This document shows positions 29,979 through 32,506 of a DNA stretch of 64,000 bases, piece by piece; within the stretch, counting starts at the first letter, position 1; each line of letters begins with the position of its first letter. Under the pieces are notes generated by a model. That model ran no database searches. It saw nothing but the letters and a program-made list of their open reading frames with translations, and was not told the origin of the DNA. Source of the DNA: Candidatus Rokuibacteriota bacterium (lineage in GTDB: Bacteria > Methylomirabilota > Methylomirabilia > Rokubacteriales > CSP1-6); assembly GCA_030647435.1 (NCBI GenBank), contig JAUSJX010000076.1:1-64000 (forward strand). Direction: 5' to 3'. Position numbers and translations under genes: made by a program.

Positions 29979-30413
29979 ATGGTCACAGCCACGACGATCG
30001 CGGAGACGCTCGGGGGAAGGAGTGTCCTGAAGGAGCGGCTGGCCGACTACACCGCCGTCATCCATCGGGCGCGCTCCGGCCTTCCATTCGCCTCACTCGC
30101 CGCCGTCGGCACGCGGTACGACATTCCCCTGCTCACGCTGGCGCGGGTGGTCGGCCTGCCTGCCCGCACCTTGGCCCGGCGGAAGAAGGAGCGGCGCCTC
30201 CGAGCGGACGAGTCGGACCGGCTGCTGCGTCTGGCACGCGTGGCGGCCGTCGCCGAGGATGTGTTGGGAGCGCAAGACAAGGCCGGGCGATGGCTCCAGA
30301 AGCCGAACCGCGCGCTGGGCGGCATCGCCCCACTCGATCTGCTGGACACCGATCTCGGCGCCGAGGAAGTCGTGACCGTCCTGGGCCGGATCGAGCACGG
30401 CGTGTACAGCTGA
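29979..30413 (+). CDS. Xre/MbcA/ParS family antitoxin (DUF2384)
   Basis: 144 residues. An N-terminal region with a helix-turn-helix (FASLAAVGTRYDIPLLTLAR, then GLPARTLARRKKERRLRADE) precedes the C-terminal toxin-binding domain LRLARVAAVAEDVLGAQDKA...WLQKPNRALGGIAPLDLLDT, the hallmark of MbcA/ParS/Xre antitoxins. It binds the RES toxin and the operator upstream. Its stop overlaps the RES start (CTGA), so translation is coupled. Intact. Confidence 0.87.
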   Translation: MVTATTIAETLGGRSVLKERLADYTAVIHRARSGLPFASLAAVGTRYDIPLLTLARVVGLPARTLARRKKERRLRADESDRLLRLARVAAVAEDVLGAQDKAGRWLQKPNRALGGIAPLDLLDTDLGAEEVVTVLGRIEHGVYS

Positions 30414-30871
30414 TCCGGGTCTGGCGTCTCGCCCAGCCCCGCACCGCGGCCTTTGACGGCGAGGGAGCCAGAATGTACGGCGGCAGGTGGAACCATCGTG
30501 GAACTCCTGTCGTGTACACGTCCTCCACGCTTTCGCTTGCGGTCCTGGAGCTGCTGGTGCACCTGGACGACGACGACCTCGCGAAAGACTGCGTCGGCAT
30601 CCCGGCGGACATTCCGGACCCGGAGGAGATCACCCTCATCCGAACCTCGGGTCTCCCACGGGAGTGGCGAAACCTTCCGCGGCCGCAGGCTCTCGCCGAT
30701 CTGGGTAGCCGCTGGGCCGCGGCGCGTAAGACCGCAGTGCTGGCAGTGCCATCCGCGATCGTTCCCCACGAGTTGAACTATCTGCTGAACCCGCTGCATC
30801 CACACTTCAAACGCATCCGCATCGGCCAGCCGGAGCCGTTCTCCTTCGATCCGCGGCTCTGGAAGCCGTGA
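30410..30871 (+). CDS. RES family NAD+-degrading toxin
   Basis: 153 residues starting at a CTG (30410) that overlaps the antitoxin stop; no ATG, GTG or TTG is in frame nearby. RVWRLAQPRTAAFDGEGARM, then YGGRWNHRGTPVVYTSSTLS and LAVLELLVHLD carry the Arg, Tyr and Glu of the RES active site (R-x(n)-Y-x(n)-E). The C-terminus FDPRLWKP is typical. RES toxins lower cellular NAD+ by phosphorolysis or hydrolysis. It forms a module with the Xre-type antitoxin before it. Confidence 0.85.
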   Translation: MIRVWRLAQPRTAAFDGEGARMYGGRWNHRGTPVVYTSSTLSLAVLELLVHLDDDDLAKDCVGIPADIPDPEEITLIRTSGLPREWRNLPRPQALADLGSRWAAARKTAVLAVPSAIVPHELNYLLNPLHPHFKRIRIGQPEPFSFDPRLWKP

Positions 30872-30877
30872 TACCAT

Positions 30878-30917
30878 CCGGCTCGTTCCGCGAATGGCCG
30901 GCTCGTTCCGCGAATGG
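30878..30917 (+). repeat. Perfect tandem duplication of a 20-bp unit
   Basis: CCGGCTCGTTCCGCGAATGG occurs twice back to back (30878-30897, 30898-30917) between the RES stop and the start of the glutaredoxin-DinB selenoprotein. It reaches into that gene's ribosome-binding region (GGGAGGG at 30916-30922). Confidence 0.9.
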
Positions 30918-30925
30918 GAGGGCCC

Positions 30926-31672
30926 ATGGATACTCCGCGCGTCTACTACCGGCAGGGCTGAAGCTCCTGCGCCAAGACGAAAGAGTTGCTTTCGTCATGG
31001 GGAGTGACGTTCGAGGGGTTCGACGTCGAAGCCGAGCCCGAGCGGCGGCGTGACCTCGAGCCGTTCGGCGTCGCCCGCGTGCCGGCGACGATCGTCGGCG
31101 ACCGCGTGGTCCACGGCTGGAACCCGAAGGCGCTCGCCGAGCTGGTGGGGGCGCGCTACGCGGAGTGCCTACAGCTGGCGCCGGCCGAGCTGGCGCGGCG
31201 GCTCGACACCGTGCTGGCGGCGACCCAGCGCGCGATCCGCCAGGTCCCGCGCGAGCACCTCGGCATGAAGGCGCCGGGGCGCGACCGGTCGGTGCGCCAG
31301 CTGGGCTTCCACGTCTTCCGCCTGAGCGCGGCCTTCGTCGATACGCGCGAGGAGGGGCACCTGTCCGAGCACGTGTTCGACGAACAGGCGCCGGCAGAGA
31401 TGGTGGACGGCGACGCCGTCGCCCGCTACGGCGAGACGGTGCGGCGGCGGCTCGCCGCGTACTGCGCGCGGCCGGGCTGGTGCGACGGCAGCGTCAGCAC
31501 GTACTACGGCCCGCAGTCGGCCCACGATTTCATGGAGCGCACGACGTGGCACGCCGCCCAGCACCTGCGCCAGATCTACTGGTTCCTGGACCGAATGGGC
31601 GGGCGGGCCGACGGGCCGCTGCCCGACGCCGACCTCGACGGGCTGCCGATTCCAATCGACGTCTGGTCTTAG
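30926..31672 (+). CDS. Glutaredoxin(UxxC)-DinB fusion selenoprotein
   Basis: 248 residues if TGA 30959-30961 is read as selenocysteine (codon 12). ATG 30926 follows GGGAGGG. Residues 1-75 are a thioredoxin/glutaredoxin fold: MDTPRVYYRQG, then U-S-S-C, AKTKELLSSWGVTFEGFDVE and the cis-Pro strand ARVPATIVGDRVVHGWNPKA. Sec replaces the first cysteine of the usual CxxC. From ~85 onward is a DinB-type four-helix bundle with metal-ligand histidines (LGFHVFRL; TWHAAQHLRQIYWFLDRM). A stem-loop follows the TGA at 14 nt. DinB proteins include thiol-dependent transferases, so a thiol-redox reaction is inferred. It heads a plus-strand run with SDR, hydrolase and molybdenum hydroxylase genes; the SDR starts 9 nt after its stop. 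Confidence 0.87.
30976..30996 (+). promoter_or_regulatory. Candidate bacterial SECIS hairpin (glutaredoxin-DinB)
   Basis: GACGAAAG (30976-30983) pairs perfectly with CTTTCGTC (30989-30996), leaving the loop AGTTG. It begins 14 nt after the TGA. AGT at the start of the loop matches the apex seen downstream of the UGSC gene at 43724-44254. Confidence 0.72.
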
Positions 31673-31681
31673 GACGGACAG

Positions 31682-32506
31682 ATGGCCATCCCTGAATACG
31701 ATCTGACCGGCAAGGTGGCGTTCGTGACGGGCGCGGGCCGCGGCATCGGCAAGGGCATCGCCCAGGCCCTCGCCGAGGCCGGCGCGGACGTCATCATTAA
31801 CAGCCTGACCGACAAGCACGTGACGAGCCTCGCGGCCGACATCGCCAAGGCGACGGGCCGGCGCGTGGTGCCCCTCGTCGCGGACGTGACCAAGTCGGAC
31901 GAGGTGGAGCGCGCGATGAGCCGCATCCTCAAGGAGTTCGGCGCCCTCGACGTGCTCGTCAACAACCTCGGCGACTCCATCCGGAAGCCGCTGGTGCCCC
32001 TGCCGGGCCCCCTATCGGATCAAGCAGCGAAGGCGCCCGGTCCGCTGACCCCCGGCCCGCTGACCGATGACGAATACCGCCTCATCCTCGATCTCAACCT
32101 GACTGAGGCCGTGCTCTGCAGTCGGGCCGCGGGCCCGCACATGCTGGCCAGGCGCTCCGGCAAGATCATCAACATCGGCTCGTTCGCCTCCGCCCGCGGC
32201 GGCGTCAACCTGACGATCTATGCCGCCGCGAAGACGGCGCTCGTCGGGTTCACCCGGGCGCTGGCGCTCGAGTGGGCGCCCTACGGCGTCCAGGTGAATT
32301 CGATCGCGCCCGGGCTCTTCCCCGACGCGGTGACCGCAGGCGAGGCGGGCTACGCCGAGGCGGTCCGCCGCGCCCAGCAGACCGTGCCGCTCCAGCGAGA
32401 GGGACGGCTCCGCGAGGTCGGCCTCCTCGCCGTCTACCTGGCTTCGGCGGCGGCCGACTACATGACCGGCCAGACACTCTACCTGGACGGGGGGCTGACG
32501 CTGTGA
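31682..32506 (+). CDS. SDR family oxidoreductase
   Basis: 274 residues. VAFVTGAGRGIGKGIAQALA is the cofactor loop, LDVLVNNLGDSIRKPL has NNLG in place of the usual NNAG, and IINIGSF plus YAAAKTALVGF hold the catalytic Ser and YxxxK. An insertion of ~15 residues rich in Pro-Gly-Pro-Leu (PGPLTPGPLTDDEY) follows the NNLG motif. The C-terminus YLDGGLTL is standard. The gene begins 9 nt after the selenoprotein stop, so they are almost certainly co-transcribed. Substrate unknown. Confidence 0.87.
   Translation: MAIPEYDLTGKVAFVTGAGRGIGKGIAQALAEAGADVIINSLTDKHVTSLAADIAKATGRRVVPLVADVTKSDEVERAMSRILKEFGALDVLVNNLGDSIRKPLVPLPGPLSDQAAKAPGPLTPGPLTDDEYRLILDLNLTEAVLCSRAAGPHMLARRSGKIINIGSFASARGGVNLTIYAAAKTALVGFTRALALEWAPYGVQVNSIAPGLFPDAVTAGEAGYAEAVRRAQQTVPLQREGRLREVGLLAVYLASAAADYMTGQTLYLDGGLTL

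Follow-up and report, generated by a model that had tools for sequence, protein, structure and literature searches.

A predicted selenocysteine-containing glutaredoxin-DinB fusion protein encoded across an in-frame UGA in Rokubacteria and other bacterial phyla

The window analyzed here is a stretch of 64,000 nucleotides from a contig of a Candidatus Rokuibacteriota bacterium, a soil or groundwater member of the Rokubacteria. The features of interest in the window are as follows.

30926 to 31672, forward strand: gene for the predicted selenocysteine (Sec) glutaredoxin-DinB protein, with orthologues; 248 aa, UGA at codon 12, stop codon TAG
30935 to 31153, forward strand: NrdH-like glutaredoxin domain, residues ~4-76; UxxC at 12-15, conserved Pro53; PF00462 at 3.3e-9; PDB 1h75, 4hs1 and 7c10
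30959 to 30961, forward strand: predicted Sec codon TGA (U of U-S-S-C); TGA in 92/92 loci, TGC or TGT in Pseudomonadota homologues
30976 to 30996, forward strand: bSECIS-like hairpin; 8-bp stem, 5-nt loop AGUUG, G within the first two loop bases
31172 to 31600, forward strand: DinB/YfiT (S-transferase-like) helical domain, residues ~83-225; AlphaFold2 model, Foldseek matches 6iz2, 3dka and 1rxq, and DinB_2
31310 to 31312, forward strand: His129, predicted metal ligand (YfiT H67); invariant, from the 1rxq alignment
31550 to 31552, forward strand: His209, predicted metal ligand (YfiT H160); invariant in the family alignment and kept in Cys homologues, from the 1rxq alignment
31562 to 31564, forward strand: His213, predicted metal ligand (YfiT H164); invariant, from the 1rxq alignment
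31682 to 32506, forward strand: SDR oxidoreductase gene, 9 nt 3' of the glutaredoxin-DinB gene; Pfam adh_short_C2 at 8.6e-56

When TGA was translated as U, the frame from 30926 to 31672 gave a product of 248 aa which began MDTPRVYYRQG-U-SSCAKTKELLSSWG... and ended in VWS. As the sequence-only reading had proposed, the frame held a single internal TGA, at codon 12, where the first Cys of a CxxC motif would be expected (RQG-U-SSC). The frame closed with TAG. A Shine-Dalgarno-like GGGAGG lies directly 5' of the ATG and makes a good ribosome-binding site. Immediately 5' of this site is a perfect 20-bp tandem duplication (CCGGCTCGTTCCGCGAATGG, 30878-30917), and just 5' of the gene is a type II RES/Xre toxin-antitoxin pair (29979-30871; Xre NF049845 at 119.5 bits, RES PF08808 at 1.3e-29). 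Standard ORF calling yielded only a 228-aa ORF from a TTG start at 30986. Downstream of the TGA, dN/dS against orthologues of 75-84% identity was 0.19-0.25, a range which excludes the very closest pair as having too few changes for an estimate and which indicates purifying selection.

The glutaredoxin model PF00462 matched residues 6-62 with 37.2 bits against a gathering cut-off of 22.9 (3.3e-9), and this match spans the TGA, in agreement with the earlier claim that a single glutaredoxin is encoded in one frame on both sides of the codon. Foldseek matched the N-terminal part to the NrdH structures 1h75 and 4hs1. Residues R9, G11, U12, C15, P53, G64, H129, H209, H213 and Q216 were invariant or nearly so in the family; the invariance of U12, C15 and P53 gives the (U/C)xxC motif and cis-Pro region by which a glutaredoxin is recognized. 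Other glutaredoxins with an in-frame TGA were also observed. The source genome encodes a stand-alone, Uxx-star-like UGPC glutaredoxin (G000:C98:82974-83183) with a similar hairpin past its TGA, and several loci in Acidobacteriota genomes (L147-L153) encode small glutaredoxin proteins with TGA in UAGC, UPVC, UQSC, UMAC and UPPC motifs; these Uxx-star-like proteins are possibly under-annotated.

With respect to the C-terminal half, an AlphaFold2 model of the fusion, built from 41 natural sequences with Cys modelled for Sec, had a pLDDT of 92.1 and a pTM of 0.88. Foldseek matched this half to the DinB/YfiT proteins DR0053 (6iz2), YjoA (3dka) and YfiT (1rxq). The DinB_2 model scored 16.1 bits in the source protein, below its cut-off of 24.8, and the best relative gave 4.4e-11. 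The C-terminal DinB domain with conserved histidines that had been read from the sequence was borne out by the model, with the four-helix fold and the three conserved histidines that define the DinB/STL superfamily, these histidines aligning with H67, H160 and H164 of YfiT. The latter are the sole residues completely conserved among the eight B. subtilis bacillithiol transferases that depend on a metal (PMC5815605). Judged from sequence and model, the product is an NrdH-like glutaredoxin (U-S-S-C) fused to a DinB/YfiT putative metal-binding domain. The source genome also carries a stand-alone DinB paralogue (G000:C6:15168-15683) which is 47% identical over the DinB part and has the three histidines and no glutaredoxin, and such paralogues occur in other members of the genus as well.

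Codon 12 was TGA in all of the approximately 60 genomes with close or moderate homologues, and homologues bearing TGA were found in Methylomirabilota, Binatota, SAR324, Acidobacteriota and Tectomicrobia. Among 95 genomes searched within the phylum, about 50 encoded a full-length or nearly full-length protein with an internal TGA in each match; one fragment at a contig end carried a TAG besides the TGA. All 49 phylum loci that were extracted had TGA at the same codon, as did 43/43 loci from a scan of 84,980 species genomes, most of these being from Rokubacteria and the rest from Binatota, SAR324, Terriglobia, Blastocatellia and Tectomicrobia. The two sets overlap, and the combined 92 loci represent 50 distinct sequences around the codon. 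Searches of 396 Acidobacteriota and 52 SAR324-group genomes recovered the fusion in its TGA form only, and a search of viral contigs for relatives of the fusion gave no match. A very divergent Sec form (G001:C206), 30% identical and with the motif U-T-N-C, has Gln in place of the first His of HxxxH; its host belongs to a Methylomirabilota family encoding bshC.

The sequence-only reading had suggested a search for homologues with TGC or TGT at this codon, and these were found by tblastn on plasmids, where 13 full-length homologues were present in the Pseudomonadota Caballeronia, Variovorax, Roseomonas and Rhizobium. Of these 13, five were examined, and in each the position of the Sec codon was occupied precisely by TGC or TGT, within a PGCSSC or TGCSSC motif. 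In the tree the Cys forms grouped together (96/84 support) beside a divergent Sec form (genome G525), and a single change between Sec and Cys would suffice to account for it. The TGA forms and the plasmid-borne Cys-codon homologues constitute a classical Sec/Cys pair. As some 60 related genomes keep the TGA and other bacteria have Cys in its place, the sequences point to a real selenoprotein family.

Folding of the 52 nt from the TGA onward gave -20.5 kcal/mol against -12.5 for shuffled sequences (z -3.5), with 0/200 shuffles as stable. The hairpin described in the sequence-only reading was found as reported, with arms GACGAAAG (30976-30983) and CTTTCGTC (30989-30996) forming a perfect 8-bp stem around the loop AGTTG, 14 nt past the TGA. 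Under a register-specific null which preserved both the protein and the family codon usage, the 8/8 stem pairs of the source gene had p = 0.006, and across 50 distinct sequences 7.22 of 8 pairs were observed where 4.71 were expected. The hairpin is more than chance. In an alignment of 44 distinct sequences the 8-bp stem was formed in 91% of cells, and sliding the partner by 1-3 columns reduced this to 40-63%. One stem pair alternated between A-U and C-G among these sequences, and the pair at columns 29-39 was broken in 23/44. The stem is preserved by rare and by compensating codons, the rare ones being AAA, TTG and CTT in a GC-rich genome. Arg codons opposite Ser TCG were AGA or AGG in 4/4 cases and those opposite Ala GCG were CGG or CGA in 7/7, these being states common to related sequences and not independent events. 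When the synonymous-codon test was based on fold energy the signal was weak (mean z -0.8), and some distant relatives formed only 6-7 of the 8 pairs, so the strength of the SECIS varies. An Rfam search of the hairpin returned nothing meaningful and no matching model. Placed just 3' of the UGA, the hairpin is predicted to direct Sec decoding.

The source genome (5.79 Mb, 98% complete) contains all of the selenocysteine machinery for which the sequence-only reading had recommended a search. A tRNA-Sec with UCA anticodon scored 71 bits, and selA and selB, both above their cut-offs, are adjacent on the same contig as this tRNA. The selD gene, also above cut-off, has an in-frame TGA of its own (Sec-SelD; G000:C98:94090-95046), and shares its contig with the UGPC glutaredoxin. 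Outside Methylomirabilota selA was above cut-off in 7/8 carriers; within the phylum almost every genome has selA, and its co-occurrence therefore carries no information. The organism's own tRNA-Sec, SelA, SelB and SelD are predicted to decode UGA codon 12 as selenocysteine.

If the TGA were instead a normal stop, or a sequencing error or pseudogene lesion, the locus would encode an 11-residue peptide and a headless DinB ORF from the internal TTG at 30986, and indeed standard ORF calling gives the TTG-started 228-aa ORF alone and stand-alone DinB paralogues without glutaredoxin exist in the same genus. Against this, ~60 independent assemblies have TGA at the codon without exception and no other stop, the glutaredoxin motif continues in frame on both sides with purifying selection downstream, and homologues carry a Cys codon. 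The Sec/Cys pair and the conservation refute a normal stop, to which we give almost no weight; an assembly error or pseudogene was likewise rejected, as dozens of independent assemblies share the same TGA. It is similarly very improbable that the UGA is read as Trp or Cys by reassignment or a suppressor tRNA with no involvement of selenium. Genomes that recode UGA do exist, as is generally known, and homologues do have Cys at the site, but neighbouring genes end in TGA, as do about half of the orthologues themselves (26/48 of those in the phylum whose stop could be read), which shows that the code has not been reassigned, and this candidate was rejected; moreover the Sec machinery is complete and the hairpin is preserved through rare codons. 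The outcomes which the sequence-only reading had named as speaking against selenocysteine, namely homologues that all stop here, absent machinery or an assembly error, were not encountered, the homologues reading through and the TGA recurring. The gene almost certainly encodes a selenoprotein, as far as can be judged from its sequence and those of its relatives.

The SDR gene at 31682-32506 is probably co-transcribed with the glutaredoxin-DinB gene. The same SDR neighbour was found at one further locus (L075), and different SDRs adjoin the gene at two others (L095 and L113). At most Rokubacteria loci an enoyl-CoA hydratase gene lies 5' on the same strand, within ~25 nt in about a dozen and farther in many more. 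Across many Rokubacteria (L098-L135) the order is GAF histidine kinase, enoyl-CoA hydratase and glutaredoxin-DinB, followed by membrane protein, FGE-sulfatase and aminotransferase genes; the FGE-sulfatase gene near many of these copies is downstream and convergent, and is not universal. The Cys version in Variovorax has SDR, TPP enzyme, MaoC and CoA-transferase genes as neighbours. Conservation of the gene neighbourhood does not extend across phyla, and a functional operon deduced from synteny was rejected, the neighbourhood of enoyl-CoA hydratase, FGE-sulfatase and histidine kinase being confined to Rokubacteria.

Among 57 genomes of the glutaredoxin-DinB family, none had the bacillithiol marker bshC and none had the mycothiol marker mshC above cut-off, while matches resembling glutathione synthetase occurred in a few genomes and not in the source genome; the absence of low-molecular-weight thiols is thus defined by these three marker families only. 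We propose that the fusion would act as a metal-assisted thiol/selenol transferase or reductase, in which the glutaredoxin Sec and a metal bound by the DinB domain would make up one enzyme. The metal site (His129, His209 and His213) would bind and polarize an electrophilic or thiol-bearing organic substrate, and Sec12 of the tethered glutaredoxin would serve as the nucleophile, or would exchange with or resolve a thiol adduct. Cys15 would then resolve the adduct and close a selenenylsulfide, which a thioredoxin-type system would reduce to reset the enzyme. The selenol of the protein itself may in this way replace the diffusible low-molecular-weight thiol of YfiT/BstA and of the mycothiol-dependent DinB enzymes, and the absence of bshC and mshC, with few matches resembling glutathione synthetase, fits such a built-in selenol. 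Such an enzyme would likely serve to catabolize or detoxify organic acids, enoyl-CoA or carbonyl compounds; the enoyl-CoA hydratase, the SDR and the Variovorax neighbours make a role of this kind plausible. The handling of thiol adducts, which had been suggested from the sequence at the outset, is likewise something that we infer.

That the locus encodes a selenoprotein glutaredoxin-DinB fusion, with this mechanism as the leading hypothesis, is a statement which we make with considerable confidence. The Sec/metal-site mechanism taken by itself is tentative, and we place it a little short of an even call. More doubtful is the wider proposal that the thiol cofactor has been internalized, a selenol being delivered to the DinB metal site so as to allow chemistry of the thiol-transferase type without glutathione, bacillithiol or mycothiol. 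The selenoprotein might alternatively be an ordinary reductase of glutaredoxin/NrdH type acting on protein or small disulfides, with the DinB part as a binding or structural module only. The best scores do fall on the glutaredoxin domain and its UxxC motif, DinB similarity is weak in the source protein and the same genome has a stand-alone Sec glutaredoxin; however, the three histidines and the WHAAQHLRQ around them equal the redox motif in invariance and are kept in the Cys homologues, and the fusion is preserved across several phyla, and we consider this explanation rather unlikely. Mycothiol or bacillithiol is used by DinB/STL enzymes (PMC5815605), and it is also conceivable, if unlikely, that the selenoprotein is a thiol transferase dependent on an external low-molecular-weight thiol whose mixed disulfides are reduced by the glutaredoxin, as by mycoredoxin or bacilliredoxin. 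A thiol outside the marker set, such as CoA, ergothioneine or another, could serve in this role, but the family lacks bshC, mshC and, for the most part, gshB.

To our knowledge no Sec-dependent member of the DinB/S-transferase-like superfamily has been described, and this protein would be the first should the internalized-thiol proposal be true. The family is widely conserved, has a clear cross-phylum Sec/Cys pair and is cut short by standard ORF calling, and it would tie selenium to this large superfamily and provide a testable idea for thiol-transfer chemistry in bacteria which apparently lack the usual low-molecular-weight thiols. Sec-glutaredoxins, Uxx-star glutaredoxin selenoproteins and DinB/STL enzymes are already known. 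A family scan of NCBIfam found no model above cut-off for either the Sec protein or the Cys forms and none which describes the fusion, and a full-text literature search combining selenoprotein or selenocysteine with glutaredoxin and DinB gave nothing relevant. The 119 prokaryotic selenoprotein families of a 2026 inventory include no listed DinB or glutaredoxin-DinB selenoprotein (PMC13188914); a Methylomirabilota genome with 63 predicted selenoproteins (Deng et al. 2026) is cited there. The glutaredoxin-DinB selenoprotein family is apparently undescribed, with the reservation that existing selenoprotein lists of this kind may already include it without a name. The earlier remark that this exact domain pair belonged to no described family stood in part: no description of a DinB selenoprotein was found, and the pair also occurs outside selenoproteins, in Cys versions that have been annotated without a family name.

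These Cys proteins of Pseudomonadota (WP_244817409.1, WP_207446294.1, WP_162571355.1 and UIJ89411.1) share the full-length two-domain architecture and the three histidines at 28-36% identity, but have CSSC in place of USSC, with a TGC or TGT codon and no Sec; their NCBI annotation says no more than 'glutaredoxin domain-containing' or 'DinB family' and gives no family name. NrdH and selenocysteine glutaredoxins, of which one from Clostridium oremlandii is listed in PMC13188914, have the glutaredoxin fold and the U/CxxC active site in common with the fusion but lack a DinB domain, and may differ from it in reductant and substrate. The Uxx-star (seleno)proteins (NF041212, NF041211 and NF047338) likewise place Sec first in a glutaredoxin UxxC or UxxX motif; unlike the fusion described here they are single-domain proteins or are joined to other domains such as HUGP (NF045501), and the glutaredoxin-DinB protein scored 29.6 bits with NF041212 against a curated cut-off of 66. 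The YfiT/BstA bacillithiol transferases of the DinB/STL superfamily (1rxq, 6iz2 and 3dka) share the four-helix fold and the three metal-binding histidines, whereas they have no glutaredoxin domain, need an external thiol and are not selenoproteins. EgtB is a sulfoxide synthase composed of a DinB and an FGE-sulfatase domain. It too joins a three-His DinB metal site to a second catalytic domain, the partner being FGE in EgtB and glutaredoxin in the protein encoded here.
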